Source: Tateyamaria pelophila (GTDB lineage Bacteria; Pseudomonadota; Alphaproteobacteria; Rhodobacterales; Rhodobacteraceae). Taken from it: DNA of 39,822 bases. The notes under the pieces are model-generated. The model saw nothing but the letters and a program-made list of their open reading frames with translations. It was not told the origin of the DNA and did not search any database. The stretch lies in NCBI RefSeq assembly GCF_019966495.1, contig NZ_JAIMIA010000041.1, positions 1 to 39,822 on the forward strand, written 5' to 3'. Positions within the stretch are counted from its first letter, which is position 1, and each line of letters opens with the position of its first letter. Positions 5,473-38,582 of this stretch are shown piece after piece. A program made the position numbers and the translations under genes.

Positions 5473-5486
5473 AATAATTCTCTCCC

Positions 5487-6501: not shown

Positions 6502-6521
6502 ATAGTTTAGCGTTAAACTAT
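6502..6521 (-). promoter_or_regulatory. palindromic operator upstream of pdhABC
   Basis: A perfect inverted repeat with 8-base arms, ATAGTTTA (6502-6509) and TAAACTAT (6514-6521), around a 4-base centre containing CG. It ends 25 bases upstream of the pdhA ATG. On the gene strand a TTGTAA could act as -35 just upstream, so the site would overlap the core promoter and suit a repressor. The same core is found upstream of lpdA (22740-22767). The regulator is not identified; a CG-centred palindrome of this kind is typical of LacI/GalR proteins, although a MarR- or GntR-type protein is possible. Confidence 0.75.
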
Positions 6522-6605
6522 TTCTTACAAGATTCGGAGCGATGGTGCGAGTGCCTTTCTTCCGCAAGGGCAGCTTGTGCCTAACGATCAGAAAGATCAG
6601 GATTT

Positions 6606-6905
6606 TTACCGAATTACGATTTCATCGGCGCGCAACATGCCGAGAATCGAACGGGCCTGCTCGTCCAGAAGGTCAAGATCAAGGAAGTCATCCGACAGGC
6701 GTTTGGTCAGGTTTTCCATCTCTGTCACGTCTGCCTGAACGGCGGCAAGTTGAGCTGCCAGATCGCGGGCTTCTGCGTCGATCTCGGCGCGCATGAACAA
6801 TCCATAATCGCCCTGGACAGCGGCAAATGTAAAATAGATGCCCAAGGCAAAAGCCACGGCGAAAAATGTAATCAAACCCAATGCGGGGCGGGTGGTGCGG
6901 GTCAT
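6606..6905 (-). CDS. ftsB: septum formation initiator (FtsB/DivIC-like) protein
   Basis: A 99-residue bitopic membrane protein: a short cytoplasmic N-terminus, one membrane span (about residues 9-29, LGLITFFAVAFALGIYF), then a periplasmic coiled coil rich in Ala, Asp and Leu, ending in the short motif LLDEQARSILGMLRADEIV. This is the architecture of FtsB/DivIC proteins, which bridge the divisome to septal peptidoglycan synthesis. I take the ATG at 6905 because GAGG lies at a suitable distance; an in-frame ATG at 6926 has no ribosome site. A septum-initiator gene immediately before pdhA is a common alphaproteobacterial arrangement. The gene probably reads from the pgk/SDR side. Confidence 0.85.
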   Translation of the reverse strand: MTRTTRPALGLITFFAVAFALGIYFTFAAVQGDYGLFMRAEIDAEARDLAAQLAAVQADVTEMENLTKRLSDDFLDLDLLDEQARSILGMLRADEIVIR

Positions 6906-6990
6906 GTGCTCTGCCTCGTACCGCATCGTTTATCGTGCGGTTGCGCATACTATGCCACATGTGAGTCGCGCTGTGAATCCCCTTTGTTTC

Positions 6991-7773
6991 CTAGCGCGTA
7001 CCTTTCCCCATGATCTTTCCGGTGATGGCAGCGTTCAGCTTTATCGGGCTGAACCTTGTGCTGAATGCCATGATCTTGTTCATGAGACCGGGCACTACGG
7101 ACCGACGGCCCAGCCGCGCCTTGCGCCAGCCATCTTGCGCGACCTTCACGGCGGACATCGGCTTGGTCACATTCACCAGCCAAACACCTTTCATGTCGGC
7201 ATCTTCAAAGAAATTGGTTGCGGTCACGCCGGGGCAGAGGGCGGTGACGGTCACGTTTGATCCGCCAAGCTCGGTCGCCACAGCCTCGGACACCGACAGG
7301 ACATAGGCCTTGGTTGCATTATAGACCGCCATATTCGGACCGGGCGAGAAGGCGGCGAGGGAGGCGACGTTCAGGATCCGTCCCTTGGGTTGCGCCTTCA
7401 TATGCGGGATTGCCAGGTTCATCAGCCGCGTCAGGGCAAGTATGTTCACCTGGATCGAGCTTAACATGCGGTCCCAGCCCTGATCGCTGGCAAAGGCACC
7501 ATAATAAGCAAGACCCGCATTGTTGACCAGAACGTCGATGTTGCGCCCGTCGGTGGCGTTTGCCCACAGCCGTTCAGCTTCCGAAATGTCCGACAGATCG
7601 GCGGGGATGACCACCACCTGGACGCTGTCGCTGCGCAACTCGTCGGCCAACGCGTCAAGCTTGTCCTTGGACCGCGCCGTCAGGATCAGGTTATGACCGT
7701 CCCTGGCGGCGAGCCGCGCAAATTCCACACCCAGCCCTTCGGATGCGCCAGTGATCAATGTCCATGAAGTCAT
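6991..7773 (-). CDS. short-chain dehydrogenase/reductase
   Basis: A 260-residue classical SDR with a Rossmann fold. Visible motifs are the nucleotide-binding TGASEGLG near the N-terminus, VNNAG, the catalytic serine in NVASLAAFSP, and YNATK as the YxxxK pair. The Arg after the first strand (LTARSKDKLDAL) suggests NADP preference. The substrate cannot be told from sequence; relatives are annotated as SDRs related to DltE or 3-ketosphinganine reductases. The ATG at 7773 is preferred because AAAGGGGA lies 8 bases upstream; the open frame extends further up to 7821 without support. It follows pgk in the same direction after 78 bases. Confidence 0.85.
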   Translation of the reverse strand: MTSWTLITGASEGLGVEFARLAARDGHNLILTARSKDKLDALADELRSDSVQVVVIPADLSDISEAERLWANATDGRNIDVLVNNAGLAYYGAFASDQGWDRMLSSIQVNILALTRLMNLAIPHMKAQPKGRILNVASLAAFSPGPNMAVYNATKAYVLSVSEAVATELGGSNVTVTALCPGVTATNFFEDADMKGVWLVNVTKPMSAVKVAQDGWRKARLGRRSVVPGLMNKIMAFSTRFSPIKLNAAITGKIMGKGTR

Positions 7774-7851
7774 CTCGATGTCCCCTTTGGGTGCTGAACG
7801 CTTTCTTTCAGTATGAGGCAAAGCCGAGATTCAACCAATGGCAAAGACCGT

Positions 7852-9039
7852 TCAGCGCGTCAGAGCGGCTACACCGGGCAGTTCTTTCCCTTCCATCCAT
7901 TCCAGGAACGCACCACCCGCTGTCGAGATATAGCTGAAATCATCCGCGACACCGGCTTGGTTCAATGCCGCCACGGTGTCGCCGCCGCCCGCAACGGTGA
8001 TCAGGTCACCCGATACGGTGAGAGCCGCAGCGGCTTTGGCCGCGATCACGGTTGCGGTGTCGAAAGGTTCGATCTCGAACGCGCCGAGCGGGCCATTCCA
8101 GATCAGTGTCTTGAGACCGGCAAAGGCCGTTGCGATCTCGGCGGCGGCGGCGTCGCCCGCATCCAGTACCATCTGGTCCGCGTCCAGCCGGGTTTGCGCG
8201 TTCAGGGCAACAACCTCATGCGGCGCATTGGCGGCAAAGGCCCGTGCCACACGCCCGTCACTGGGCAGGATCACACGGCACCCGGCCGCGTCTGCTGCTG
8301 CCAGAATGCTTCGGGCGGTGTCGTGCAGGTCTGCTTCTTGCAGCGACGCGCCCAATTCTGCGCCTTGTGCGGCAAGAAATGTGTTCGCCATGCCGCCACC
8401 AATGACCAGCACGTCGATCTTCTTGACCAGGTTTTGCAGCAGGTCCAGCTTGCTCGATACCTTCGCTCCACCGACAACGGCACCTACCGGGCGTTTGGGG
8501 TTCGACAAGGCCGCCTCAAGCGCTTGCAATTCGGCCTGCATCAGACGGCCCGCACAGGAGGGTAAAAGATGCGCGACACCGGCTGTGGAGGCATGCGCCC
8601 GGTGCGCCGCCGAAAACGCATCATTGCAATACACATCGCCCAATGTGGCCAGAAACTCTGCCATCGCCGGGTCATTGGCCTCTTCCATTGGCGAAAACCG
8701 GGTGTTTTCGACCAGGATCACGGCATCGGCGGGCTGCGCATTGATCCAATCGCGTGAGGGACGTTCGACGAACGTCACCTTGCATCCGAACGCGGCTTCC
8801 AGCGTGGGGACGAGGGGTTGCAACGACATGTCCGGATTGGGCTTGCCTTTGGGGCGGCCGAAATGCGCCAGCAGCACCGGGCTGCCCCCCTTTGCCCGAA
8901 TATCCGCAATCGTGGGCACGATCCTTTCGATCCGCGTGGCATCCGTGACGCGGCCATCTTCCATCGGCACATTGATATCCACGCGCGTCAGCACACGTTT
9001 GCCGTTCAGATCCATATCATCCAGCGAATTCCAGCCCAT
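7852..9039 (-). CDS. pgk: phosphoglycerate kinase
   Basis: Transfers phosphate from 1,3-bisphosphoglycerate to ADP in glycolysis and the reverse in gluconeogenesis. The 395 residues are full length. Landmarks are [11 protein letters not shown] (substrate-binding N-domain), [12 protein letters not shown], the hinge and nucleotide region [22 protein letters not shown] and the C-terminal [16 protein letters not shown] lies 8 bases before the ATG. It is divergent from the cyclophilin pair across 127 bases. It is separate from both gap genes in this window, so triose-phosphate steps here are not one operon, and I see none of the CG-centred gap-type sites in its upstream region. Confidence 0.97.
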
Positions 9040-9166
9040 CGGTCATGCTCCTTGGTTTTTCGTTGGCCCCTGCATCGCGGCAATTGGCGCGTCGGTCAAT
9101 GCATCACTTGTCCCTCGGCCCTGCAAGGCATAGGTAAGTGCGCAATTGCAAAGCAGAGAGATAATC

Positions 9167-9673
9167 ATGGCCGAAATCAAAGACCCCGAAAACACGATCC
9201 TGATGGAACTCAAAGGTGGCACCGTCACAATCGAACTGTTGCCCGATGTGGCCCCGCAGCACAGCGCCCGCATGAAAGAACTCGTGCGCGCAGGCGAATA
9301 TGACAATGTGGCGTTTCACCGGGTCATCGACGGCTTCATGGCGCAAACAGGCGATGTTCAGCACGGCGATATGGAAGACGGGTTCAACATCCGCATGGCG
9401 GGCACAGGCGGCTCTGACAAGCCTGACGTGCCAGCCGAATTCTCCAAGCTGCCCCACGACCGCGGCACAATCGGCGCGGCCCGTTCGGCCAATCCCAACA
9501 GTGCCAACAGCCAGTTCTTTATCAACTTCTCCGACAACGCCTTCCTGAATGGTCAGTACACGGTTTACGGCCGCGTCATTTCGGGCATGGAGCATGTCGA
9601 CGCGATCACCCGTGGCGAGCCGCCAGCGGAACCGGATCGCATGATCAGCGTGAAGGTCGCAGCCGATGTTTAG
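9167..9673 (+). CDS. ppiB: cytoplasmic peptidyl-prolyl cis-trans isomerase (cyclophilin)
   Basis: A 168-residue cyclophilin without a signal peptide, which catalyses cis-trans isomerisation of Xaa-Pro bonds. The active-site stretch FHRVIDGFMAQTGD and the downstream NPNSANSQFFINF are intact. I use the ATG at 9167, preceded by GCAGAGAG; the frame also has a TTG seven codons upstream. The last 8 bases overlap the start of a second cyclophilin gene, so the two are translated together. Confidence 0.94.
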   Translation: MAEIKDPENTILMELKGGTVTIELLPDVAPQHSARMKELVRAGEYDNVAFHRVIDGFMAQTGDVQHGDMEDGFNIRMAGTGGSDKPDVPAEFSKLPHDRGTIGAARSANPNSANSQFFINFSDNAFLNGQYTVYGRVISGMEHVDAITRGEPPAEPDRMISVKVAADV

Positions 9674-10211
9674 GGTTGCACTCGCACTGGCCTGCCTTGC
9701 CGGGCCCGCGGCGGCCAGTGGCCTTGAAATCGATATCGCAGGCGAGGCCAATGGCACGGTGACGATCGACCTCTTCGAGGACATCGCACCCAAGCATGTG
9801 GAACAGATCACAGCCATCGCCGCGGCAGGCGACTATGACGGAGTTGTCTTTCACCGCGTCATTGACGGTTTCATGGCACAAACGGGCGACGTCGAAAATG
9901 GGGTCCTCGGTTCGGATATGCGAAGAGCAGGTACTGGTGGGTCACAATTTCCTGACATCCCTGCAGAGTTTTCCGATCGCTCCTTTGATCGCGGTATCGT
10001 CGGCATGGCACGCAGCCAGAACCCCAACTCGGCCAACAGCCAGTTTTTCATCATGTTTGAGCCGGGTCCGTTTCTGGACGGGAACTATACCGTTGTGGGT
10101 GAAGTGACCTCGGGCATGGAGGTGGTTGATTCCATTAAGAAAGGTACTGGTTCGAACGGCGCTGTCGTGGGGAAGCCAGACCACATGGTTTCGGTCAGGG
10201 TCACCCCGTAG
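9666..10211 (+). CDS. exported peptidyl-prolyl cis-trans isomerase (cyclophilin)
   Basis: A 181-residue cyclophilin with a short signal peptide (MFRVALALACLAGPAAASG), so it probably works in the periplasm. It keeps FHRVIDGFMAQTGD and NPNSANSQFFIMF, which are nearly identical to the neighbouring PpiB. Its ATG lies inside the end of ppiB with an 8-base overlap. The pair looks like a tandem duplication followed by acquisition of an export signal, giving one folding helper for each compartment. Confidence 0.92.
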   Translation: MFRVALALACLAGPAAASGLEIDIAGEANGTVTIDLFEDIAPKHVEQITAIAAAGDYDGVVFHRVIDGFMAQTGDVENGVLGSDMRRAGTGGSQFPDIPAEFSDRSFDRGIVGMARSQNPNSANSQFFIMFEPGPFLDGNYTVVGEVTSGMEVVDSIKKGTGSNGAVVGKPDHMVSVRVTP

Positions 10212-10236
10212 GTATGCAATAAGTATGAATGCCAGA

Positions 10237-10261
10237 CAGTTCTGACAACTTGTCAGAACTG
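10237..10261. repeat. 25-bp near-perfect palindrome
   Basis: Arms CAGTTCTGACAA and TTGTCAGAACTG (12 bases each) around a single central base, 25 bases after the exported cyclophilin stop. As RNA it could fold only with loss of the central pairs, and no T tract follows, so it is a poor terminator. It could be a dimeric protein-binding site or a recombination end. Confidence 0.7.
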
Positions 10262-10368
10262 GTCGATCGGATCATAAGGCCAGGCGTTCAGGGCCTCCGT
10301 CTGCTCCATGCGGCTCAACAGTTCACGCCGCGATGTTCATGCCTCTCAACCAAAGCGGCGTCTATCGG

Positions 10369-10914
10369 CTAATTGTTTCGTGATTTGACTGTGCCACGGG
10401 ATTTGAGGGGCGGCTGCCACTTGTGTTTTACCAGCGCATCGCACGGGACCCAGTGCTCGTGAAGTGACCACCATGCAATAACAAGGGCGCCAGGGGCAGG
10501 GGGCAGGTCTTCAATGTTTCCGGCCTGATCCAGTACGCTTCCGAACTTGAGATAACTGCGTAGAGGTCTTCGGCAGGCCCCTCGAAGACAGCATCTTCGG
10601 GCCTGTCGGTATCGGATTTCTCGACCGTTTGCTCCCACAACAGGAAGGCTGTTGGGTAATGACCGGAAAGTCCGACCTGTATTCTGCATCACCAGAACAT
10701 GCTCTATCAAACCGACCTGAGCTTCTAAGGAAAGTCTTTCAAATTAGCGTCTTCAGTCAAGACCATGACGGTGTATTCGCCCGCAACTATATCAACAGCC
10801 ATACTGTCGAACGGAGGGGCGCCAGGATATCGGGAGTATTCTCGTTATAGGCATAGATCTCGCTCGTGTAGCCGCGGCACAGCGGATGCCCGCTGCAGAT
10901 GTCATCGCGCCTCA
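10369..10914 (-). pseudogene. possible frame-broken coding remnant, unrecognised
   Basis: Reading the minus strand, protein-like segments follow one another but in different frames: MRRDDICSGHPLCRGYTSEI from 10914, then FDSMAVDIVAGEYTVMVLTE to a stop at 10725, then WEQTVEKSDTDRPEDAVFEG within 10640-10520, then LVIAWWSLHEHWVPCDALVK to a stop at 10369. Composition and continuity look like one ancestral gene with several indels. I do not recognise the family. The alternative is that these are chance open frames in non-coding DNA. Confidence 0.3.
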
Positions 10915-11322
10915 TGACCCGAAAATGGCACAACCGACCACAAATGGGACTCCTACGTCAGGTGGGGAACAGGAGGAGCCTTCAATTTTTGAAGGTAGTC
11001 GGCCGGATCAGAAGTTTCCTGATGTTGGAGCGTCGCGCATTGCCATTCACAAGTTACTCGACCGCCTTTGTTCACATTAAGGTGTTGAATAGCGGGAGGA
11101 CTAAAATATTAATGCTGCAGATCCTGGTCACGCGTCAGTGCTGGCCGGCGAAGCTTTCGTAGTCGGGATGTTAGCCCGTCTGTGCGTGCGTCACATGTCG
11201 CGTGACGTCTTTCTTGTCTTTGCATTCCAGGGGCTCGGTCGGGTTGCAACCTTGTGCAGAGGGACGCATTGGGCGAATTTGCCTAAGGGCCACTGAAAAC
11301 GCCGCGTCGATTTTGATGTTCG

Positions 11323-11352
11323 AAAAAAAAGACGCTCCGAAGGTTGGAGCGC
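11323..11352 (-). terminator. intrinsic terminator of the bactofilin operon
   Basis: On the minus strand the stem CGCTCC/GGAGCG (11333-11338 and 11346-11351) is followed by an eight-base T run (A tract at 11323-11330 on +). It lies about 25 bases past the bactofilin stop. Confidence 0.88.
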
Positions 11353-11376
11353 CTCATATGCATTGATGCACGTTGC

Positions 11377-11886
11377 TTAATCGGCCTTCGGCGTTGCGGG
11401 TGCGGTGGCCTGCGCAGTCGCCGTGGGTTTACCGCCTGAGTTCAGCGGATCGTCCTGCCGTTGGACCGACCCTTCGAAATGGGCACCGCTTTCGATCGCG
11501 ATCGTCTTGTGAATGATGTCGCCCTCTACCCGCGCCGTCGAGGTCAGTCGCACTTTCAGCCCGCGGACGCGGCCAACGATTCGGCCGTTGATGACCACAT
11601 CGTCGGCAATCACTTCGCCCTTGATGGTGGCACTTTCGCCGATTGTGAGCAAATGCGCACGAATGTCACCTTCGACGGTGCCCTCAACCTGGATGTCGCC
11701 TGTGGTCTTCATGTTGCCGGTCACGTGCAGATCCGCCGAAAGGACAGAGGCCGGTGGCTTGGCCTTGGGTGCGCTTGCCTTGAATTCAGAAGATTTTTGC
11801 CCGGATTGCGACGCCGCAGCGGGGTTTGCCGTTTTCGAGGCGTCCGCACCGGGACCAGGTTCGTTGATTTTGCTTTTAGAAAACAT
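11377..11886 (-). CDS. bactofilin-family cytoskeletal protein
   Basis: A 169-residue protein with a low-complexity N-terminus (~45 residues, Ala/Ser/Lys/Pro), a central right-handed beta-helix domain of bactofilin type (about 50-145: GDIQVEGTVEGDIRAHLLTI, ADDVVINGRIVGRVRGLKV), and an Ala/Thr/Pro-rich tail. Bactofilins polymerise without nucleotide and act as scaffolds for local cell-wall synthesis or stalk formation. Its start overlaps the end of the upstream M23 peptidase gene by 11 bases, and bactofilin-peptidase pairs are a known functional unit. It is the last gene before a terminator. Confidence 0.93.
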   Translation of the reverse strand: MFSKSKINEPGPGADASKTANPAAASQSGQKSSEFKASAPKAKPPASVLSADLHVTGNMKTTGDIQVEGTVEGDIRAHLLTIGESATIKGEVIADDVVINGRIVGRVRGLKVRLTSTARVEGDIIHKTIAIESGAHFEGSVQRQDDPLNSGGKPTATAQATAPATPKAD

Positions 11887-13207
11887 CGTTTGCTGCCTTG
11901 ATATAGATCATGGGGTTCACGGCCTTGCCGCCGACGCGGACTTCGTAATGCAGATGCACGCCGGTCACCCGTCCAGAGGCTCCCATATCACCAATGCGGT
12001 CCCCGCGCGAGACCCTTTGACCAACTTTTACCTTGAGCCGCGACAAGTGCGCGTAACGCGTCTCGATCCCGAACTCGTGCTGGATCTTCACGAGGCGACC
12101 GTAACCGGACTGCCATCCCGCGTGGGTTACGACGCCGTCCGCCGTTGCATAGAGTGGGGTACCGACCGATGCAGCGAAATCGACGCCATTGTGCATGCGA
12201 CGTCCACCTGTTTTCGGGTCACGGCGCGGTCCGAATTGCGAGGTAAACCGAAACGCAGATTTCACGGGTGTGGCAAACGGCGCTTTTTGTGCCGCAATCC
12301 GGTAGAGGTTGAGCTGATCCATTTGGTTCAGCAGCCGATTGGCCCGCATCGTATCGGGAGAGGGTTCCTCGCCACGGGTCGAGAACGTCAGGGGCGTCAA
12401 CGGCCCACCCTGTCCGGAATAGCCGCGACGAATCTGTTCGATAATGCGATCTGTCGGCATGCCTGCGGATCGGAACATTTTGTCGAGCGGCGCAACCGAA
12501 ACACTCATCGCTTCTTCGAGTTGGCGGAAAATCTGGTCGTTTTGCTCCCGCATCAAGGCAATTTCGGTCTCAAGCTCATCCGCCGCCAGCAATGCATCTT
12601 CGGCGTCCTGGATGACCTGGTCACGTTCAGCGGCCGTGCGGGCCAAAGCTTCGGCCACGAAATCAATCGATGCGCTCGACGCCGTATGCGTGGCTCCGGC
12701 CCCGCCGCCATCGATCTCGACCTGTTCTTTGAGCCCGGCGATTTGTGCCTTGGCCGCCTCACGATCCTTCATGGTGCGGCGCAGGGTGCTCTGTATCACA
12801 TCAATGCCGGTTTCCAGTTCCCGGCGACGGGTTTCAGAGGACAACAATTCCGATTGCATGATCGAGATTTGTGTAAGCGCGGCGGTGAACCGTTCCTGCG
12901 CGGCCAGCGCTTCCTGAGCACGGCTGTCGCGCTGAGCCGACAGATCATTCAAGCGGTCTTGATACGTGCTCTGATCCCGTTTTGCCTGTTCGCGGAAATT
13001 GCCCGAACCGATGCTGTCCATCAGCAATATCGCCGTGGCGATGATGGCCCAGGCAATCACGAAGGAGCCGCCTGCAAAGGCGGCAACCTGTGTGCCGGGA
13101 CGCAAGCGGATAAACCGCGTGTCTGTATCTGATTTCAGAAATACGCGGCGCTCCGGAAAATACTTCTCCAGTAGGCCGTGCCATTTAATGCCGAGGCGTG
13201 TTCGCAC
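11876..13207 (-). CDS. membrane-anchored M23 family metallopeptidase
   Basis: Probable peptidoglycan endopeptidase. With the GTG at 13207 it has 443 residues: a short basic cytoplasmic part, a membrane span (about 40-63, GGSFVIAWAIIATAILLM), a long periplasmic coiled coil (about 70-230), and a C-terminal M23 domain with the zinc-ligand motifs HNGVDFAASVGTPLYATADG and HLHYEV. I prefer GTG at 13207 because AAGGA lies 8 bases upstream; the frame extends to 13348 but only to a TTG without a ribosome site. The pairing with bactofilin recalls the bactofilin-LmdC type systems in which the polymer positions the hydrolase. Confidence 0.9.
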   Translation of the reverse strand: MRTRLGIKWHGLLEKYFPERRVFLKSDTDTRFIRLRPGTQVAAFAGGSFVIAWAIIATAILLMDSIGSGNFREQAKRDQSTYQDRLNDLSAQRDSRAQEALAAQERFTAALTQISIMQSELLSSETRRRELETGIDVIQSTLRRTMKDREAAKAQIAGLKEQVEIDGGGAGATHTASSASIDFVAEALARTAAERDQVIQDAEDALLAADELETEIALMREQNDQIFRQLEEAMSVSVAPLDKMFRSAGMPTDRIIEQIRRGYSGQGGPLTPLTFSTRGEEPSPDTMRANRLLNQMDQLNLYRIAAQKAPFATPVKSAFRFTSQFGPRRDPKTGGRRMHNGVDFAASVGTPLYATADGVVTHAGWQSGYGRLVKIQHEFGIETRYAHLSRLKVKVGQRVSRGDRIGDMGASGRVTGVHLHYEVRVGGKAVNPMIYIKAANDVF

Positions 13208-13320
13208 AGTCTCGTCCTTGTTCCGTCCCGATTTTCGGCGCGCGTCTCCCCGCAAACGACGCCTTGAAAATGTTCCATAAATGAGGGCTGCAAAGCGGGG
13301 CAAGCCTCGCGGTTTGATCA

Positions 13321-13364
13321 GCGGTTTTCCGGCAAGGAAACGGTACAAAGTGGCGGAAAACCGC
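13321..13364. repeat. inverted repeat upstream of the M23 gene
   Basis: GCGGTTTTCCG (13321-13331) and CGGAAAACCGC (13354-13364) are perfect 11-base arms 22 bases apart, between the DUF455 gene and the M23 gene. No T run follows on the minus strand. It may be a weak terminator, an mRNA stabilising hairpin, or an operator. Confidence 0.6.
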
Positions 13365-13382
13365 GCATTTTACCCGTCTAGG

Positions 13383-14192
13383 TTAGTTTGCGACCGCAAG
13401 TGGCCAATAAAAATCCGGGGGTAGGCCCGCTTCGGCCCTTTTTTCCTCATTGAACGGAGGTTTGAGCGGGCTGTGAAAATACGTCTGAACAAGCCGGTGA
13501 AACGCCACCTTGGGGTCAAGGTTTTCGCGCCCGCACAAGAAGTGGAACCATTTCGATCCGTAGGCCACATGCGCCACTTCTTCGGCATAGATGGTTTCGA
13601 GTGCGGTCACAGCATCGTCCACCTTCGCCTTGCGAAACACTTCGATCATGCCGGGTGTGACATCAAGCCCACGCGCTTCCAGCACCATCGGGACGACCGC
13701 CAGTCGTCCCATGAAATCGGTTGCTGTATCCTCGGCGGCACGCCACATGCCTGCATGGGCAGGCAGCGCGCCATAGTGGCTGCCCATCGCTTCAAGGCAG
13801 TCGCACATCAAATTGAAATGTTTGGATTCCTCATCGGCTGCCTTTACCCAGTCGTCAAAAAAACCCATCGGCATCGGCACATGGGAAAATCGCGCGATGA
13901 TGTCCCAGTGCAGATCAACGGCGTTCAGCTCGATATGGGCCACGGCATGCAACAACGCGATGCGCCCTTCAGGCGATCCGGGGCGACGACGCGGAACGTC
14001 GCGCGGGCTGAGCAATTCCGGCGTGACGGGCCGGGCCGGGTGCATTGGTGGATCAGCCCGCCCGATGTCCGGTTCCTCACCCGCAGTACGCGCCGCTTGC
14101 CACTGCGCAGCCAAGCGGCGCGACAGGGCGGTTTTTTCCCGCCCGTCTGCCGTGCGCAACACCGCCTCTGCCATTTCGGCCAGCGGTTGCAT
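13383..14192 (-). CDS. DUF455 ferritin-like protein
   Basis: A 269-residue all-helical protein of the DUF455 ferritin-like group. The carboxylate and histidine pairs expected of a diiron four-helix bundle are visible: HAVAHIELNAVDLHWDIIAR, ADEESKHFNLMCDCLEAMGS and YAEEVAHVAYGSKW. The function of the family is not established; a metal-dependent oxidase or hydroxylase is inferred. The ATG (14192) overlaps the stop of the upstream bcp gene in a TGATG junction; a GTG directly before it is an alternative start. Coupling with a peroxiredoxin hints at a role in oxidative stress, which is inference only. Confidence 0.85.
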   Translation of the reverse strand: MQPLAEMAEAVLRTADGREKTALSRRLAAQWQAARTAGEEPDIGRADPPMHPARPVTPELLSPRDVPRRRPGSPEGRIALLHAVAHIELNAVDLHWDIIARFSHVPMPMGFFDDWVKAADEESKHFNLMCDCLEAMGSHYGALPAHAGMWRAAEDTATDFMGRLAVVPMVLEARGLDVTPGMIEVFRKAKVDDAVTALETIYAEEVAHVAYGSKWFHFLCGRENLDPKVAFHRLVQTYFHSPLKPPFNEEKRAEAGLPPDFYWPLAVAN

Positions 14193-14656
14193 CACAGGGC
14201 CTGAACGGCCGCCAGAACCACATCCGCATGGCCGGGCACCTTGACCTTGGGCCAGACCATCGCGACGTCGCCATTGGCATCGATCAGGTAGGTGGTGCGC
14301 TCTATCCCCATGTATTTTTTGCCATACATGTTCTTTTCCTTCCAGACACCATAGTCCTCGCAGACGGTCCCATGCTCATCAGAGAGCAACGGCACGGTCA
14401 GGTCGCGCTTGGTCGCAAATTTGACATGGCTCGCAACGCTGTCTTTCGAGATGCCGAACACTTTCGCCCCGGCGGCCTCAAAGGCCTCCAGACCTTCGGA
14501 AAACGCGATGGATTCCTTGGTGCACCCGGGCGTGTCGTCGCGCGGATAAAAGAACAAAACAACCGCACTGCCCTTGAGCGCGGAAAGCGTGACGTCGGTT
14601 CCATCGCCCTGCGGCAAGGTGAAATCGGGGGCTTGGGTCGCAATTTCGAGCATCAT
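14192..14656 (-). CDS. bcp: thioredoxin-dependent peroxiredoxin (Bcp/PrxQ type)
   Basis: Reduces hydrogen peroxide and organic hydroperoxides. The protein has ~154 residues with the peroxidatic cysteine in FFYPRDDTPGCTKESIAF. The cysteine five residues after it, which resolves the disulfide in Escherichia coli Bcp, is absent; the only other cysteine visible (HGTVCEDYGVW) may serve instead. AAAGG lies shortly before the double ATG at 14656/14653, so I prefer these over the in-frame ATGs at 14671 and 14695, which lack a ribosome site. It is divergent from the AsmA-like gene and coupled to the DUF455 gene. Confidence 0.92.
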   Translation of the reverse strand: MMLEIATQAPDFTLPQGDGTDVTLSALKGSAVVLFFYPRDDTPGCTKESIAFSEGLEAFEAAGAKVFGISKDSVASHVKFATKRDLTVPLLSDEHGTVCEDYGVWKEKNMYGKKYMGIERTTYLIDANGDVAMVWPKVKVPGHADVVLAAVQAL

Positions 14657-14724
14657 GTGGCCTTTTGTCATGTTAGGGAAAGATGTGGTTGGCATGATAG
14701 GGCCGGGCGGACAAGAATAAAGTC

Positions 14725-17700
14725 ATGAGCAGCAAAGAACCAACAAGTCAGCCGGAGAGCCGACCCCGCAAAAGCGTCTGGCGTCGCCATGTGATTGCGA
14801 GTTCGGCATTACTCGTGCTCATAGCAGCCGTCGCAAGCATTACGTTTTACTTTGCGATCGGACGCACGATTGCGGCGCCCAACTGGGTGCGCGAACAGGT
14901 CATGGCGCGTGCCTCGGATGCCCTCGGGACGGCGAACCTGCAATTCGATGCGCTTGATTTTGTGGTCGACAAAGGCATGAAGCCCCGGATGCGCATGTCC
15001 AATGTGCAACTGACAACCCAATCGGGCGCAGAGATCGTGGCATTTGCCGAAGTGCGGGCGGGTCTTTCGCTTGAACGTTTTTTGCAAGGGCAGGCCTTGC
15101 TGGCCGATATCAGTGTCAGCGGCGTTTTTGCTCAGCTGCGGCGGCAGTTGGATGGATCGGTCCTGTTGTCGGGCGGGCTTGACCTGTCCGCGCCGACGCA
15201 GCAGGCCGCGACATTCGCACAACTGATCGAAAGCGTGGACGCCGTACTGGCCTTGCCCGCGCTTTCCGCGCTGACCCGTGCCGAAGTGCAGGCGCTGACC
15301 TTGCAGGTCGAAGACCTGAGATCGTCTCGCAGATGGACGATCGACGGAGGGCGCGTGCGCCTGAACCGCGACGGAGAAGTGTTGCAACTGAACGCGGATC
15401 TGGCACTGCTCAGTGGCGGTCAGGGTGTGGCGACGCTGGAGGCCAATTACGAAAGCCGCATTGGCGCATCGGAGGCGCATTTCGGCGTCACCATCGCGGA
15501 TGTGGATGCCGGTGACATCGCAGCGCTGGCCCCGCCTTTTGCCTGGCTGGATGTGCTGCGGGCCCCGATCTCGGGCTCGATGCGGGGCGGCATCACCGAT
15601 ACCGGCACGTTTGAGCCCCTCCACGCAACCTTGACCATCAGTGAAGGTGTCCTTCAGCCGACGGATGCGACACGGCCTGTGCCCTTTTCTTCGGCGCGCA
15701 GCTATTTCAGCTATGATCCCAACCTGCGTATTCTGACCTTCGATGAACTGTCGGTCAGAAGTGCGTGGATCACCGGCCAAATGGTAGGCCAGACCTTTCT
15801 CGGAGTGAGCGAGACAGGCGTGCTCGAAGATCTGGTTGGCCAGTTTCGCACCAGTACGCTGACGGCGAACCCGAATAATGTCTACGAAGAAGCGGTCTCC
15901 ATCGACTCCGCCGAGATGGATTTCCAGCTGACCCTGTCTCCGTTTCGCCTCAATGTGGGGCAGGCGTTCTTTCGGGATAAGGGGCAGACCCTGCATGCCT
16001 ATGGAACCCTCGCCGCCGAGCCCCAAGGCTGGAGCTACAGTGTCGATGCACAGATGGATGGGCTGATGCCTGACCGTTTGCTGACGCTCTGGCCGGATGG
16101 CGTTAAGCCGCGCACGCGGAAATGGATCTCGGAAAACATTTCTGCAGGGAGCTTGCGCAATCTGGACTTCGCGCTGCGCGGCACACCGCAAGGCCCGCCG
16201 AATGTCTTCATCGGCTTTGCCTATCAGGGTGCGGAGCTGCGGTATGCCCGGAATTTGCCGCTGATCACCGACGCCAGCGGAACAGCCAGCCTGTTTGACA
16301 ACCGATTTGTGGCGACCGTGGATAAGGGCCATGTCGAAGCCCCGCAAGGCGGAACGGTCGATATTGCCGGGACGTCCTTTATCATTCCGGACGTCACGGC
16401 CGGTCCGGGCGCGCCCGGTGTCGTCCGGCTTGAGACAAAGGGATCGGTGACGGCGATGTTGTCCCTGCTGGATCAACCGCCGCTGTCCCTGATGCAGAAA
16501 GCCGGGCGGGTCCCTACGGTGGCAGATGGGCGATTGCAAGTTGCGGGAACGCTGGCCATGCCGCTCCGACGCGGGCTGAAACTCCCGGATTTCACATTCA
16601 GCATGTCCGGTACGGCCAGCGACGTGGTGAGCACCACACTGATTGAAGGCCGACGGTTGGAGGCCGGCACCCTGCGGCTCGATGCTGATAATCTGGCGGT
16701 GAACATTTCGGGCCCAGGCACATTGGACGGTGTCGCCTTTGATGTGGTCTGGACCAAACCGCTTGGCCAACCCGCACAACCCAGCACGCTTGCCGGGACA
16801 CTTGAAGTGTCGGAACGTACGATCGAAGCTTTTCGCATCGGTCTGCCTGCGGGGATGGTCACGGGCGGGGGATCGGGCCGGATCGCGCTTGAATTGCCCG
16901 TGGGCGGGGGCGCGCCTGTCTTTCAGCTTGAAAGCGACATGACGGGCCTGCGCCTGTCCGCACCACCGATCAATTGGAGCAAAGCCCCGCAAACTGTGGG
17001 TGACTTGTTTATCGCGGGCGTTTTGGGACCAGAGCCGCGGATTGACTTGCTGCGCGTCGATGCGCCGGGCCTCAGCGCCAGCGGGAGCATCACACTGGCA
17101 GAGACAGGCGGTCTGGAGCGCGCCCGGTTTGACAGAGTGCAGGTGGGGGCTTGGCTGCAAGGGTCCGTTGATCTGGAGGGGCGTGGTGCGGGGGCGGCCC
17201 CGGCGGTCGTCGTCAGGGGCGGTACACTGGATTTGCGCGCGGCCGACTTCGGCGGCACGTCTGGCGGGGACGCGGCGTCCCGCACCGGCGCTGCGCAGGG
17301 CGAGCGACCCCTGGCTCTGGCCCTCGAGCGGCTTCAGATCACGGACGCCATCGCGCTGACGGATGTCGTCGGGACGTTCAACCTCGCAGGTGGGTTGGAC
17401 GGGGCGTTTGGCGGGCGTGTCAATGGTGGCGCACCGATACGCGGTTTCGTGCTGCCCCAAAACGGACGCAGCGCCATCCGCATTACCTCGGACGACGCGG
17501 GCGGCGTGGCAGGATCTGCTGGCATTCTCAAGCAAGCGCGGGGCGGGGCCCTGTCCCTGACCTTGCTTCCGGTCGGGGATGCATCCTTTGACGGAACGCT
17601 GAACGTTGCCGACACCAGCATTCAGGACGCGCCTGCCATTGCGGCACTGCTCAACACGCTGAGCGTCGTCGGCATCCTGGACCAGATGCAAGGCGGTGGC

Positions 17701-18153
17701 ATCCGGTTCAACGAGGTCGAGGCTGTCTTCCGCCTGACACCGTCGACCATGATATTAACGCGGGCCAGCGCGGTCGGCCCGTCGATGGGCCTGTCGATGG
17801 ACGGGACCTTTGACGTGGCCAATGCCAACCTGGATATGCGCGGCGTGATCTCTCCGATTTACGTGCTCAACAGGGTCGGCAGCATTTTCACGCGCAAGGG
17901 CGAAGGGTTGATCGGGTTCAACTACACCCTGAGCGGTCCGTCCAGTGCGCCGCAAGTGACGGTGAACCCGATGTCGGCACTGACGCCGGGGGTGTTTCGT
18001 GAACTGTTCCGCGCGGCTCCTCCGGAAATACCCGAATTGGAAGGTGCGCCGCCAGCACCCGCGCTGCCCGAGGCATTTGTGCCAGAGACACCAGACACAC
18101 CGTCATCGGAGCAATTGCGCGAAGAGCGGCAACAACGGCTTGATGATCGCTGA
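14725..18153 (+). CDS. AsmA/YhdP-like envelope protein (DUF3971 type)
   Basis: A 1142-residue protein with a cytoplasmic, basic N-terminus, a single membrane span (about 24-46, [20 protein letters not shown]) and a very long periplasmic region of repeated beta strands, as in the AsmA, TamB and YhdP group. These form a hydrophobic groove across the periplasm and are implicated in phospholipid transport to the outer membrane. The C-terminal part (about 930-1090, with [20 protein letters not shown] and [20 protein letters not shown]) is the conserved AsmA-like end, followed by a Pro/Glu-rich tail. It precedes queA by 22 bases in the same direction. Assignment to the group is firm; the exact subfamily is not. 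Confidence 0.85.
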
Positions 18154-18175
18154 CGGCGTAGCTAAAGGCAGCGTC

Positions 18176-19249
18176 ATGAAGCTGAGCGATTTTGATTTCG
18201 ATTTGCCCGACAGGCTGATTGCAACGCGACCTGCGGTGCCGCGGTCATCCGCGCGTTTTTTGGTGGCCGAAGGCGATGCGATCCACGATGGCACGGTCAC
18301 GGATCTGGTCACGTGGCTGAGGCCCGGTGACCTGCTGGTACTGAACGACACGCGTGTCATTCCGGCGCGGTTGAACGGTGAGCGCAGCCGCGAAAGCGCG
18401 CAAGGCACGACCCGCGCGAAGATTGAAGCGACCTTGCTTGAGCCGCGTGCAGATGGCACGTGGTCCGCGCTGATCAAGCCCTTGAAAAAGCTCAAACTCG
18501 GTGAAACCGTTGTGTTCTCCGATGCGCTGTCTGCGCAGCTTGAAAACATCTGTGACGGGCAGGGGCATTTGCGCTTCAATCTGGCAGGCGATGACTTTGA
18601 CGCCGCGCTGGCAGAGGCCGGTGCCATGCCGCTGCCGCCCTATATTGCCGCCAAACGGCCCGCAGATGCGCGGGACAAAGAAGACTATCAGACCATCTGG
18701 GCCCGCCACAGTGGCGCGGTCGCGGCTCCGACCGCGTCCTTGCATTTCGACGCGCCCTTGATGACGGCGCTGGCGGACCGGGGCGTTCACTTTACCCATG
18801 TCACCCTGCACGTGGGTGCGGGGACTTTTCTGCCAGTCAAGGTCGAGGACGTGACGACCCACAAGATGCATGCCGAATGGGGCCAGGTCAGCGCCGCCGC
18901 GGCCGCGGACATTGCCGCCGCCAAAGACCGGGGCGCCCGCGTCATACCCGTCGGCACAACCGCGTTGCGCCTGATCGAGACGATGGCACGTGACGTGGGG
19001 ATTGCTGCCTGGGAGGGCGATACCGACATCTTCATCTATCCGGGTTTCGATTTTGCCGTGACCGATGGGTTGATGACCAATTTTCATCTGCCCAAATCAA
19101 CGCTGATGATGTTGGTGTCGGCGCTCATGGGGCGCGGGTGCATTCGGCAGATCTATGAACATGCCGTGACCCAGCAGTACCGTTTTTTCTCCTATGGGGA
19201 TGCGTCATTGTTGCTGCCCCGACAGAAACCCTCAAAACCGACACGCTAA
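18176..19249 (+). CDS. queA: S-adenosylmethionine:tRNA ribosyltransferase-isomerase
   Basis: Makes epoxyqueuosine in tRNA by transferring the ribosyl part of SAM to the 7-deazaguanine base, the penultimate step of queuosine synthesis. The 357 residues begin [20 protein letters not shown] and include [33 protein letters not shown] and the C-terminal [19 protein letters not shown], all hallmarks of QueA. AAAGG precedes the ATG at 18176. The frame is open upstream to 17999, overlapping the previous gene, but the family start is at MKLSDF. The gene ends 75 bases before an MFS transporter gene. Confidence 0.97.
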
Positions 19250-19324
19250 CGTCGCAACGGTCTGCGACTGTATCAAAATACCTATGGCAAGGGCGGTGTT
19301 CACACGGCCTAGGAGGCACAAGAC

Positions 19325-20584
19325 ATGGTTCAGGTTCTGGCGAGCGCGTGGGCGTTGTTACTCGGGATGTGCCTGCTGATGGTGGGCAACGGGATGCAGG
19401 GTACATTGCTGGGCATCCGGGGCGAAATCGAAGGATTTTCGACTTACGAGATGTCGATTGTCATGTCGGCCTATTTTGCCGGGTTCCTGGGCGGCAGCCG
19501 GATGGCGCCGGGCATGATCCGTCGGGTTGGACACGTACGCGTGTTTGCGGCACTTGCCTCGCTGATTTCGGCCGTCATGATCCTCTATCCGACCTTTGCG
19601 GACCCTTGGGTGTGGGCCGTGGGGCGCGTTCTGATCGGGTTTTGTTTCTCTGCGGTCTATGTCACGGCGGAAAGCTGGCTGAACGAAGCGGCGGATAACT
19701 CGAACCGTGGCAAGGCGTTGTCGCTCTACATGATCGTGCAAACGCTGGGCATCGTGGCCAGTCAGGCGCTGCTGCTGACGGCGGATCCGTCCGGCTTTGT
19801 GCTGTTCGTCATTCCTTCGGTTCTGGTTTCGATCGCCATCACGCCGATCTTGCTCTCGATCAGCCCGACACCTGCCTTTGACACAACCAAACCGATGACG
19901 CTGAAACAACTGATCGATATTTCGCCGCTCGGGTGTTTTGGCATGTTCATCCTCGGAGGCGTGTTTTCCGCGCAATTCGGGATGGCGTCCGTTTACGGTG
20001 CACAGGCCGGGTTGAGCATCGCACAAATCTCCACTTTCGTCGCAACATTCTTTGTGGGTTCGGTATTGTTGCAATATCCGATTGGCTGGATTTCGGATCG
20101 TATGGATCGGCGGGTCCTGATTATTTTCGTGTCGGCGATCGGTGCGATCGGGTCCGTGATTGGCATGTTCTTCGGCACAGATTTCACAATCTTGCTGGTT
20201 TCGGCGTTTATCGTGGGGGGGATGTCAAATCCGCTCTATTCGCTGCTGATTGCGCATACCAACGACTTTCTCCAGCACGAAGATATGGCGGCAGCATCGG
20301 GCGGACTTTTGTTTATCAACGGGCTCGGGGCGGTCTCTGGCCCCTTGGTTGTTGGTGTCATGATGGAAAAAATTGGCCCCCCCGGGTTCTATTTGTTCAC
20401 GGCTGTCCTTTTCGTGGTTCTTGTTGCGTATGCAGGGTATCGCGCGACCCAGAGGCGTTCCGTTCCTGTTGACGAAACAGGGGCTTACATCGTCATGTCG
20501 CAAGCGTCGACAACGCCGCTTTCGATGGAGATTGCGCAGGAATATGCCATCGAGGCCGATCTTGAGGCAGAAGAAAACAACTGA
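19325..20584 (+). CDS. MFS transporter, YcaD-like
   Basis: A 419-residue inner-membrane protein with about 12 hydrophobic spans and a short acidic cytoplasmic tail ending in EADLEAEENN. The MFS signature between spans 2 and 3 is degenerate (GSRMAPGMIRRVGHVR), and the motif FSAVYVTAESWLNEAADNSN in the first half is typical of the YcaD/drug-efflux-like group. AGGAGG lies 8 bases before the ATG. The substrate is not deducible. A gene for this type of transporter next to queA and a DUF924 gene gives no functional hint. Confidence 0.88.
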   Translation: MVQVLASAWALLLGMCLLMVGNGMQGTLLGIRGEIEGFSTYEMSIVMSAYFAGFLGGSRMAPGMIRRVGHVRVFAALASLISAVMILYPTFADPWVWAVGRVLIGFCFSAVYVTAESWLNEAADNSNRGKALSLYMIVQTLGIVASQALLLTADPSGFVLFVIPSVLVSIAITPILLSISPTPAFDTTKPMTLKQLIDISPLGCFGMFILGGVFSAQFGMASVYGAQAGLSIAQISTFVATFFVGSVLLQYPIGWISDRMDRRVLIIFVSAIGAIGSVIGMFFGTDFTILLVSAFIVGGMSNPLYSLLIAHTNDFLQHEDMAAASGGLLFINGLGAVSGPLVVGVMMEKIGPPGFYLFTAVLFVVLVAYAGYRATQRRSVPVDETGAYIVMSQASTTPLSMEIAQEYAIEADLEAEENN

Positions 20585-20592
20585 TGCGCGCA

Positions 20593-20610
20593 ATATGTCG
20601 CATATGTCGC
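20593..20610. repeat. 9-bp tandem repeat, two copies
   Basis: ATATGTCGC occurs twice in direct succession between the MFS gene and the DUF924 gene. It is short and of unknown meaning. Confidence 0.5.
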
Positions 20611-20698
20611 ATTTCGTGATTGGGTCTGTTTGCAAATCATATGTAACCATGAATTACGGGGTGTGTAATTCAGGTACGTGGAAACTGGAGTGAGAGTT

Positions 20699-21280
20699 AT
20701 GGAAGGTCCGGACGATATTTTACGATTTTGGTTAGACGAGTGTACACCGGAACAATGGTTTGCATCTGACCCTGATCTTGACGAAACCATACGGTTGCGA
20801 TTTCAAGACACGTGGAAACAGGCAACCGAAGGCAAGTTTTCACTATGGCTGACCTATCCCAATGGTGTGCTGGCCTATATCATCCTGACGGACCAGTTCC
20901 CACGCAACATGTTTCGCGATGACCCGTGCGCTTTTGCGACGGACCGTGCAGCGCTGGCAGTCGCCAAATCCGCAATCGCCAAAGGTTGGGATTTGCGGGT
21001 GGAGGCGCGGGTCCGGCATTTCTTCTATATGCCGCTGGAGCATTCCGAAAACCTGTGTGATCAGGACCGCGCTGTGCGTCTGATCCATGAGCGTTTGGAA
21101 GACCGCACGTATTTGATACACGCCCGCGCGCACCGCGAAGTCATTCGCCAGTTCGGTCGCTTCCCGCATCGCAATACGGCGCTGGGACGCAAGACAACCG
21201 GAGCAGAGCAGGATCACCTTGATGCAGGCGGATACGGCAGCGTCCTGCGCGGCATGGAGCAAGCGACCGAAGCGGCCTGA
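20699..21280 (+). CDS. DUF924 family protein
   Basis: A 193-residue soluble, helical protein. The start MEGPDDILRFWLDECTPEQW, the central LTDQFPRNMFRDDP and the ending REVIRQFGRFPHRN are the conserved blocks of the DUF924 family (TPR-like fold, function unknown). I use the ATG at 20699, with GGAG upstream; the GTG at 20678 is an alternative. It stands alone, 114 bases after the MFS gene and upstream of a terminator. Confidence 0.88.
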   Translation: MEGPDDILRFWLDECTPEQWFASDPDLDETIRLRFQDTWKQATEGKFSLWLTYPNGVLAYIILTDQFPRNMFRDDPCAFATDRAALAVAKSAIAKGWDLRVEARVRHFFYMPLEHSENLCDQDRAVRLIHERLEDRTYLIHARAHREVIRQFGRFPHRNTALGRKTTGAEQDHLDAGGYGSVLRGMEQATEAA

Positions 21281-21581
21281 GTCTGTATCCAAGGTAGGTT
21301 TTGACTATTCCGGGTGACAATCTCTCAGGAGATCGAATACCCAATATATGTGTTATAGAAACGGCTCCGAATGGGGCCGTTTTTTGTGACTTCGGCGAGC
21401 GTTTTGAAATGCTGAACCCATCCTCCATTGGTCTCTGCAAGTTGCATTGGCGGCCCTAGGCAAAGCTCATCCGTCCTAGTTGTCGCGCAGTATATCCGGC
21501 CTCACCTTCACCAAGAAGTGCATTATTTTGCAAAAAGCGCTACAATTGGCGGCATTTGACGACGAACCGTGGAGATTTGCC
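21281..21581. other. 301-bp intergenic stretch
   Basis: Contains the terminator at 21360-21386 and, before the orphan gene, a good -10 candidate TACAAT (21541-21546). The -35 position holds only GTGCAT, so the promoter is uncertain. A TTTTGCAAAA palindrome lies at 21526-21535. No gene is seen. Confidence 0.5.
21360..21386 (+). terminator. intrinsic terminator after the DUF924 gene
   Basis: AACGGCTCC (21360-21368) pairs with GGGGCCGTT (21373-21381, one G-T pair) around a 4-base loop and runs into six Ts. It is 79 bases after the DUF924 stop. Confidence 0.9.
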
Positions 21582-22586
21582 ATGCCAATACCAAAGCGCA
21601 CCCACTTTATTGATACGCTCGACGAACTGAAAGAATATTTCGACAAACTGAAAGAGATTGACGCGCAGCGGGAGCAAGCCGAAGATATCCTGCGCAAGAT
21701 TGAAGAGGTTCGTGAAGCGCTGAAAGACGAGAACATTTCAGAACGCGAAGCTTTCGGCCTCATGCGTTTACTCATCGAATGCATCAAGGATGTGGCGCCC
21801 GAAATTCCGGTCTTTACGCAATTCCTGGAACTTTACATCGCGGCGCTGAAGACCACCGAGAGTTTTCTGGACAATGTTTTGGATAATTACGGCCCGCCGT
21901 CCGAAGCGCGCAAACGTTACTGCGAGATCCGAGAGGCCGTTGAGGATCAAATGGACGCCAGCGATGAGGACTTGGACGAAGAAACCTTTGACGACGAGGC
22001 ACATGCACGGACGCTTGAATACCTGGGTTATCCTTTCAACACGGAAGGCAAAAAGCTGCGCGACTTCTGGAACAAAAAGAAGGAAAAGGAGCATTTCGAG
22101 AACGAAGCTGCGGATGCTGAAGACATCAAAGACGAGGTGCAGGACGCAGCAGACAATCCCGGCCCACCCGAAGAGGAAGACGAACGCTGGGGGGTGATCC
22201 ATCCGCCATCGCCGCCGCCCATAATTGTCGATCCGCCGCAGCCGCCCTCGCCACAGGAGCTATGTTGTGCCAAGCACGGAACAACTCGCCCGACGCTGGA
22301 CGAACGGCAGTTGGTCGTGCGTCGTGAACGGATCAGCGGCAGTATTACCGTCGGTCATCCTTGCGGCATCGCAAGCGTCAAGCTGGAGATTTACGGTTTT
22401 CCCTTTGGCAGCAATGACAGTCGGTTGTCGGAAGAAGTGGAGTTGGCGCCGAAGGGAGCACCAAAGACCATGGGATATCGTTTGAAATTCAAACGCCCGC
22501 GTTGGTCACGGGGCATCTATTTTGTGGTTACTGTCCGGTCGGTGTGCGGGTCGGTATATCGCAAGGGGTTTGCCAACGGTCGCTGA
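21582..22586 (+). CDS. unrecognised acidic protein with proline-rich linker
   Basis: A 334-residue soluble protein I cannot assign. Residues 1 to about 160 are helical with a coiled-coil start (LKEYFDKLKEIDAQREQAED) and many Asp/Glu. About 160-215 is a highly charged, probably disordered stretch (KKKEKEHFENEAADAEDIKD). About 219-237 is a proline-rich linker containing PPSPPPIIVDPPQPPSP. The last ~95 residues look like a small beta domain that starts after ELCCAKHG and has two further cysteines. There is no signal peptide or membrane span. GGAG lies 7 bases before the ATG at 21582. It stands alone between a terminator and lpdA, with no partner gene. The modular layout (coil, acidic linker, Pro hinge, beta domain) resembles adaptor or effector proteins. 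Confidence 0.75.
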   Translation: MPIPKRTHFIDTLDELKEYFDKLKEIDAQREQAEDILRKIEEVREALKDENISEREAFGLMRLLIECIKDVAPEIPVFTQFLELYIAALKTTESFLDNVLDNYGPPSEARKRYCEIREAVEDQMDASDEDLDEETFDDEAHARTLEYLGYPFNTEGKKLRDFWNKKKEKEHFENEAADAEDIKDEVQDAADNPGPPEEEDERWGVIHPPSPPPIIVDPPQPPSPQELCCAKHGTTRPTLDERQLVVRRERISGSITVGHPCGIASVKLEIYGFPFGSNDSRLSEEVELAPKGAPKTMGYRLKFKRPRWSRGIYFVVTVRSVCGSVYRKGFANGR

Positions 22587-22739
22587 GGCTGATGCCGCCT
22601 GCCTTCGCAATGCAATCCGCAGCGGTTTTTGCAGTGTCGGAGAGTCCAGCGTAACGTGCCTGTACGGTGTCTCAGGATGGCGCCCTACAGTAGCACTTTG
22701 TCGCGCAAGCCAGAACAAGCCAGATGTTGAGGATCCCTC

Positions 22740-22767
22740 CAAATTAGTTTAACGGTAAACTAATTTG
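22740..22767 (+). promoter_or_regulatory. 28-bp perfect palindromic operator upstream of lpdA
   Basis: Arms CAAATTAGTTTA (22740-22751) and TAAACTAATTTG (22756-22767), 12 bases each and perfectly complementary, around ACGG. The inner TAGTTTA-N4-TAAACTA is identical to the core upstream of pdhA. It ends 26 bases before the lpdA ATG. TTGAGG at about 22727 could be a -35 whose -10 falls inside the palindrome, which fits repression. Confidence 0.8.
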
Positions 22768-37129: not shown

Positions 37130-37203
37130 GGTATCCCCCATGTCTGGTGTCAGTAATGCGTCTGAAACGACAATATGGTCACGATGTATCATGCCTTGCC
37201 GCC

Positions 37204-38486: not shown

Positions 38487-38582
38487 CTCTTTTCCCACGC
38501 GTCCAAAAACTCTGAAATATCACGTGGTTCATAGCGGGAGCCGGCAAATGTGGGAAGTCTGATTAGAATGATAAATCAGAGT

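Follow-up and report, generated by a model that had tools for sequence, protein, structure and literature searches.

The window analysed here, 39,822 nucleotides of Tateyamaria pelophila DNA (contig NZ_JAIMIA010000041.1, positions 1-39,822, assembly GCF_019966495.1), encodes the E1, E2 and E3 components of pyruvate dehydrogenase. On the minus strand lie pdhA (E1 alpha, 329 amino acids, 5487-6476), pdhB (E1 beta with an N-terminal lipoyl domain, 4111-5508; the open reading frame is of 465 amino acids and the true start is possibly internal) and pdhC (E2, dihydrolipoamide acetyltransferase, 436 amino acids, 2790-4100), and on the plus strand lpdA (E3, dihydrolipoyl dehydrogenase, 465 amino acids, 22794-24191). 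Each product scored above the cut-off of an NCBIfam equivalog model (in the order given, TIGR03182, 511 bits with a cut-off of 394; NF008854, 828 and 454; TIGR01349, 528 and 445; TIGR01350, 564 and 409). The same palindrome, TAGTTTA-N4-TAAACTA, precedes pdhA and lpdA. Sequence comparisons make it probable that this element, TAGTTTAAYRNTAAACTA here and broadened in other genera to approximately TNGTTYAAYRNTRAACNA, acts as operator for a regulon comprising pdhABC, lpdA and the malic enzyme gene maeB, with a MarR-family protein, MarR-A, as the most likely factor and most likely a repressor.

The predicted pdhA operator occupies 6503-6520 and reads TAGTTTAACGCTAAACTA toward the gene, on the minus strand; its symmetry spans 6502-6521, with 8-base arms (ATAGTTTA-GCGT-TAAACTAT). 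The predicted lpdA operator, at 22745-22762, reads TAGTTTAACGGTAAACTA toward its gene on the plus strand and extends to perfect 12-base arms over 22740-22767 (CAAATTAGTTTA-ACGG-TAAACTAATTTG). A first-pass annotation had reported both the shared symmetric motif and the 12-base arms, and the sequence bears out both sites as described; 26 bases separate the pdhA 18-mer from the ATG at 6476, and 31 bases separate the lpdA 18-mer from the ATG at 22794. When the window was scanned allowing three mismatches, only these two sites matched, against a mean of 0.08 matches in shuffled windows; none of 100 shuffles gave two matches. The two are also the only exact copies in the whole 5.65 Mb genome, where a limit of two mismatches adds one further site, 20 bases upstream of maeB.

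Conservation and targets of the motif

Within the genus, the motif occurs at up to one mismatch in 20 of 20 genomes, including that of T. pelophila, at three places per genome in 15, two in 4 and four in 1. A pair of sites 13-20 kb apart was found in all 20 (exact in 19, with one mismatch in G014), and the fetched member of each pair lies at pdhA or lpdA. The third place in the genus is maeB, both in T. pelophila, with two mismatches, and in all five other genomes for which it was fetched (G001, G002, G005, G013 and G014). The best match of maeB is a nicotinamide adenine dinucleotide phosphate-dependent malic enzyme, at 1018 bits, below the model cut-off of 1178.

Across the family, 52 of 120 genomes (T. 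pelophila included) carry exact copies, compared with 1 of 120 for the reversed-pattern control. The matches listed for other genera comprise 75 exact sites from 42 of the 52 site-bearing genomes, the two sites of T. pelophila being counted apart and nine genomes falling outside the tally: 35 precede pdhA, 24 maeB and 15 lpdA, and one precedes none of these. Among the same listed matches, the median distance to the inferred start codon is 23-32 bases across the three genes. At up to two mismatches, 46 of 51 places lie at pdhA, lpdA or maeB in 16 genomes that were picked for having sites and that carry 3-4 places each, and 15 of the 16 show all three targets. Exact copies of a tighter pattern, sought in 387 genomes of the class, were present in 6 of 6 members of the family and in 3 of 381 others.

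The operator is also found before genes of related function. In G156 an exact site stands upstream of aceE, which encodes the unrelated homodimeric E1, in an operon that continues with E2 and E3 genes, and in G037 aceE is preceded by a site with two mismatches. Use of the site before this unrelated E1 gene indicates that the operator tracks function rather than one gene family. Together with its position, near-exclusivity and conservation, this argues that the element is the predicted operator of a very small regulon, pdhABC, lpdA and maeB. The first-pass annotation had allowed for a motif common in unrelated intergenic regions, or for pdhA and lpdA copies that are unconserved in relatives; the motif is instead rare elsewhere (74 of the 75 sites among the matches listed stand at the three targets) and the pair is kept throughout the genus. 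The proposal that one factor sets E1/E2 and E3 together is strongly supported. That maeB is an equal third target had not been foreseen.

Sites with one mismatch precede the lipoyl synthase gene lipA by 16 bases in G013 (L029:8036-8053) and by 13 bases in G018 (L030:203-220). Judging from these, the synthase that supplies the pyruvate dehydrogenase cofactor can also belong to the regulon. The lone listed exact site away from pdhA, lpdA and maeB, a perfect 18-base palindrome, is in the small genome G095 (contig C8, L042:1501-1518), 120 bases upstream of a threonine/serine dehydratase-like gene that scores below the models' cut-offs. In G116, a copy with one mismatch (L086:4623-4640) lies within the phosphopentomutase gene deoB, 2.8 kb before the maeB site.

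A MarR protein as candidate regulator

Outside the family, the palindrome recurs beside a regulator gene. G257 and G261 carry palindromes of this type in tandem, an exact copy together with one that has one or two mismatches, before an oxidoreductase gene with a twin-arginine translocation signal, which overlaps or abuts a MarR gene. The G257 oxidoreductase belongs to the Acg family by NCBIfam, and G474, from the genus of G261, shows the same oxidoreductase start in a short locus. With the outgroup MarR protein as query, relatives were found in 106 of 120 family genomes, forming two groups, MarR-A and MarR-B.

In T. pelophila the MarR-A gene lies on the minus strand of contig C11 (16520-16969), as part of a comF-grxC-nit-marR cluster that has ubiG opposite. 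Of 80 named loci, 79 contain any given one of these neighbours, and the closest named orthologues are those of Tateyamaria (88-89%). The protein matches the profiles PF12802 (42 bits, cut-off 27) and PF01047 (30 bits, cut-off 24.6). Its AlphaFold2 model (predicted local distance difference test score 94) has a MarR fold, with a recognition helix at 66-78 followed by strands at 82-86 and 94-98, and its best Foldseek matches are MarR-family proteins, including the operator-bound MarR 5h3r; an 18-base palindrome would suit a MarR-type dimer. The recognition helix of MarR-A is mostly [VLI]T[RK]GAMTNTL. MarR-A and the two outgroup proteins have in common the helix [VLI]T[RK]GA[MI][TS]NT and the operator TAGTTTAAYRNTAAACTA; the 96 MarR-A rows compared, in which some genomes occur twice, were picked by the helix pattern and thus agree by construction, and the proteins of L115, L166 and L173, MarR-A by position or identity, have slightly different helices. 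The aligned part lacks cysteine in 90 of the 96 rows, which makes an OhrR-like thiol switch unlikely.

The distribution of MarR-A follows that of the palindrome. MarR-A was found in 105 of 120 family genomes, G095 and G130 among them, with the relative in G091 (32%) called absent and those in G104 (46%) and G120 (41%) called present. Exact sites occur in 52 of the 105 genomes with MarR-A and in 0 of the 15 without (Fisher p = 9 × 10−5). For genomes without an exact site, the comparison drew on 30 of the 55 that gave a match, with one locus per genome, and this locus lay before pdhA, lpdA, maeB or aceE in 23 of 25 genomes with MarR-A and in 0 of 5 without. Of 30 chosen genomes, 20 had a close pdhA and were used, nine had none and G105 had a remote one only; in these promoters, which have no exact site, a palindrome with at most four mismatches, a limit chosen after the values were known, was present in 12 of the 13 genomes that have MarR-A and in none of the 7 that lack it (p = 1 × 10−4), the chance expectation being about 0.06 per promoter by our arithmetic. 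On the pdhA tree the genomes that lack MarR-A do not cluster but lie scattered, and they require six changes, at least two of them forced by well-supported branches; from this scatter, loss probably occurred more than once. One genome without MarR-A, G111 (L255), carries CAGTTAAATGCTAGACGG 18 bases before pdhA, at the usual distance and with five mismatches, possibly a decayed operator.

The paralogue provides a second line of evidence. MarR-B adjoins an Acg-type gene wherever its surroundings were read, and its helix, in ten rows, is VPK[TN][ST]M[TS]H[TS]L. A palindrome resembling TRGTNCGA-NN-TCGNACYA, a pattern drawn up after the promoters had been seen, is present in 6 of 7 MarR-B oxidoreductase promoters (L154, L178, L180, L112, L120 and L121), in five of them as at least two copies, and nowhere in the remainder of those loci; the seventh promoter, L116, differs. 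These palindromes are of 18 bases and have ends like those of the pdh operator, with different inner bases, which suggests that helix and operator change together between MarR-A and MarR-B. MarR-B itself was rejected as the factor on the pdh palindrome: its operator differs, and G095, G130, G079, G106 and G053 have sites with a single, A-type match. MarR-B and the G257 and G261 proteins, encoded beside an Acg-type flavin mononucleotide oxidoreductase, resemble MarR-A in belonging to the same protein subfamily and in having 18-base palindromes with TAGT...ACTA-like ends; the two outgroup proteins have both their helix and their operator type in common with MarR-A, whereas MarR-B differs in its helix and inner operator bases. 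Unlike MarR-A, all of these sit in the operon that they probably control, mostly with tandem operators.

The shared presence and absence, the neighbouring MarR gene in the outgroup and the paralogue in which helix and operator differ together strongly suggest that MarR-A is the factor acting on the pdhA, lpdA and maeB palindrome. Another factor might bind the site, MarR-A being merely co-distributed as a core gene of the family. MarR-A is near-universal, so that the co-occurrence rests on the 15 genomes without it, and the search covered few regulator families. A bystander would not be expected to lie beside a tandem palindrome in the outgroup with the same recognition helix, nor to have a paralogue whose different helix goes with a different operator, and we regard a different factor as unlikely. 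One family that was tested is ScfR. Its members RamB and PccR regulate acyl-CoA metabolism in these bacteria, and the site of PccR likewise consists of two arms around N4. The ScfR domain PF09856 is present in 114 of 120 genomes and has no match in G095 or G130, which bear exact sites at pdhA and maeB, and ScfR was rejected.

Several observations, in addition to the late choice of the mismatch limit and of the MarR-B pattern noted above, weigh against MarR-A as the regulator of this small set. Its gene is not adjacent to its putative targets and has no conserved operator of its own: the 115 loci fetched, 716 kb in all, gave three scattered matches at up to three mismatches and no sign of autoregulation through this palindrome; the first-pass annotation had looked to a regulator gene carrying the same site, and the likely regulator is encoded elsewhere, without it. 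No exact site is present in 53 of the 105 genomes with MarR-A, most of those looked at having degenerate sites, and in G104, whose MarR-A relative is the one at 46%, the palindrome is absent before pdhA, the sole exception among the 13. Joint loss is not independent of phylogeny, and no pdhA match reached E 1e-60 in seven of the genomes that lack MarR-A (G035, G059, G066, G077, G081, G099 and G122), nor in two in which MarR-A or a weak relative is present (G044 and G120); another pyruvate dehydrogenase may be in use in these genomes. In G095 only one of four places at up to two mismatches sits at a target. By count alone the maeB site of T. pelophila is meaningless, since at two mismatches the reversed control matches seven places and the pattern three; its weight derives from its position and its conservation within the genus. 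Finally, the lpdA-type TTG described below is wanting before pdhA (1 of 34 near that spot), and in Paracoccus malic enzyme may have a second input, from the regulator CceR.

Position of the operator in the promoters

The position of the palindrome suggests a repressor site. In lpdA, a probable −35 element, TTGAGG (22727-22732, plus strand), lies 17 bases before TAACGG (22750-22755), which is within the operator. A TTG stands 17 bases ahead of a TAAYRN hexamer inside the palindrome in 20 of 24 lpdA promoters, against a background of about 0.05 per position over the 60 upstream bases, and we infer that it is the lpdA −35 element; 7 of 21 maeB promoters have a TTG at the equivalent spot. A set of 80 promoters, picked at up to two mismatches so that the agreement of their arms is by construction, mostly has A-Y-R-N at the centre, in the direction of the gene, and has A/T-rich flanks. 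The operator would thus cover the −10 element and the start in lpdA and perhaps in maeB, and the start region in pdhA. Because the site probably overlies the −10 and start region, most clearly in lpdA, its position would be of the repressor type.

MarR-A would bind the palindrome as a dimer through its recognition helix and, once bound, would block the access of RNA polymerase until released by an effector, perhaps a pyruvate-node metabolite. The regulon would link enzymes on the route from malate and pyruvate to acetyl-CoA. Some MarR proteins activate, and activation of the three operons by MarR-A is compatible with the sequence; the overlap with the probable −10 and start region, at the medians given above, is a repressor's place, and activation seems unlikely. 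The palindrome could also be read as a leader RNA hairpin or a core-promoter element, as it is closely followed by the ribosome-binding site, has arms that could pair in RNA and shows a slight asymmetry at its centre when read with the gene. Its loss accompanies that of a DNA-binding protein, the outgroup copies are tandem palindromes beside a regulator gene, and degenerate forms retain their two-fold symmetry, so an element other than an operator is extremely improbable.

A further motif was noted upstream of these genes. GCGNC-N3-11-NTCGC, which we take to resemble the PrrA/RegA site, is present in 14 of 34 pdhA, 9 of 24 lpdA and 0 of 21 maeB promoters, and the stricter GCGNC-N3-11-GNCGC in 2, 10 and 0, respectively.

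Relation to known regulators

The PdhR operator of Escherichia coli is AATTGGT-N3-ACCAATT, of the GGT-N3-ACC type. The motif had not been recognised at first as a PdhR site, and its sequence does differ from that operator: both sites are TAGTTTA-N4-TAAACTA, on which ground PdhR, a GntR-family protein, was rejected as the factor, no GntR search of the genomes having been made. In both systems one dedicated factor would serve E1, E2 and E3, whereas PdhR differs in family and operator, and the present regulon adds malic enzyme and has dispersed genes. By this analogy MarR-A would work like PdhR, as a putative functional counterpart from an unrelated family and not as a member. PdhR is reported to be the sole controller of aceEF-lpdA in several lineages (PMC5343134). 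A literature search that covered few subscription journals and was judged from listings returned no paper on the operator, or on control of pdh by a MarR protein, for these bacteria.

The closest known motif is that of CceR (RSP_1663), a LacI protein of Rhodobacter sphaeroides and Paracoccus. Our palindrome contains GTT-N8-AAC and its centre is often CG, as is typical of LacI-type sites. It might then be the long-spacer form of the CceR motif, with CceR setting pdh together with glycolysis and gluconeogenesis. According to Imam 2015 (PMC4344238), the motif is [AGT]GTT-N6-8-AAC[ACT], which the N8 form fits, and malic enzyme and PdhAB are among the predicted targets; the same source separates the CceR targets into two clusters by spacer length, a split that two factors would explain. 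The regulon ascribed to CceR is broad, covering glycolysis and gluconeogenesis, whereas in the 16-genome sample our motif marks few places, mostly at the three targets. LacI genes also fail to track the site. G053 has only one LacI gene and G095 two, both genomes have exact pdhA sites, and in this comparison, made between these two genomes (the single LacI of G130 left out) and without a CceR reference sequence, the proteins are about 27% identical, so that no single LacI, CceR included, serves both. LacI/CceR was rejected on this evidence, and we consider it very unlikely to be the factor. Mutation of cceR in Paracoccus is reported to lower the amount of MaeB in the proteome (PMC11323563). 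We propose that the N8 cluster of R. sphaeroides belongs to MarR-A.

A possible origin of the regulon

A scenario that would account for these patterns, and that we hold to be about as probable as its negation, is that Rhodobacteraceae have a dedicated MarR repressor of the conversion of malate and pyruvate to acetyl-CoA, whose operator goes back to an older oxidoreductase-marR operon that was autoregulated. From there the regulator would have moved away with its helix and operator unchanged, and would have taken over pdh, lpd and malic enzyme genes, together with lipA or the unrelated aceE in certain genomes. The sister MarR would have changed helix and operator together, regulator and operators would have been lost jointly more than once, and the long-spacer cluster (GTT-N8-AAC) that has been assigned to CceR in R. 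sphaeroides would represent the MarR-A regulon. The pdhA and MarR trees have midpoint roots and unsettled bootstraps and so do not show which way the MarR groups changed; for this reason we rate the scenario somewhat lower than we otherwise would.

If correct, these assignments would provide a role and an operator for a MarR protein of 105 of 120 genomes in a largely marine family, and make it a candidate controller of the main entry to acetyl-CoA in Rhodobacteraceae. The motif now ascribed to CceR would be divided between two regulons. With their paired helices and operators, MarR-A, MarR-B and the outgroup proteins would form a natural series for studying change in MarR DNA specificity.

Other genes in the window

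The window has 116 open reading frames of at least 100 amino acids, mostly overlapping, of which 10 were compared with NCBIfam and 30 with Pfam, some of them twice. Among those scanned, one regulator gene was seen, of the LysR family (33991-34926), with no sign of a link to the palindromes. A phosphoglycerate kinase gene (7852-9039) lies between pdhA and lpdA, and two glyceraldehyde-3-phosphate dehydrogenase genes adjoin on the minus strand (36125-37192 and 37485-38498).

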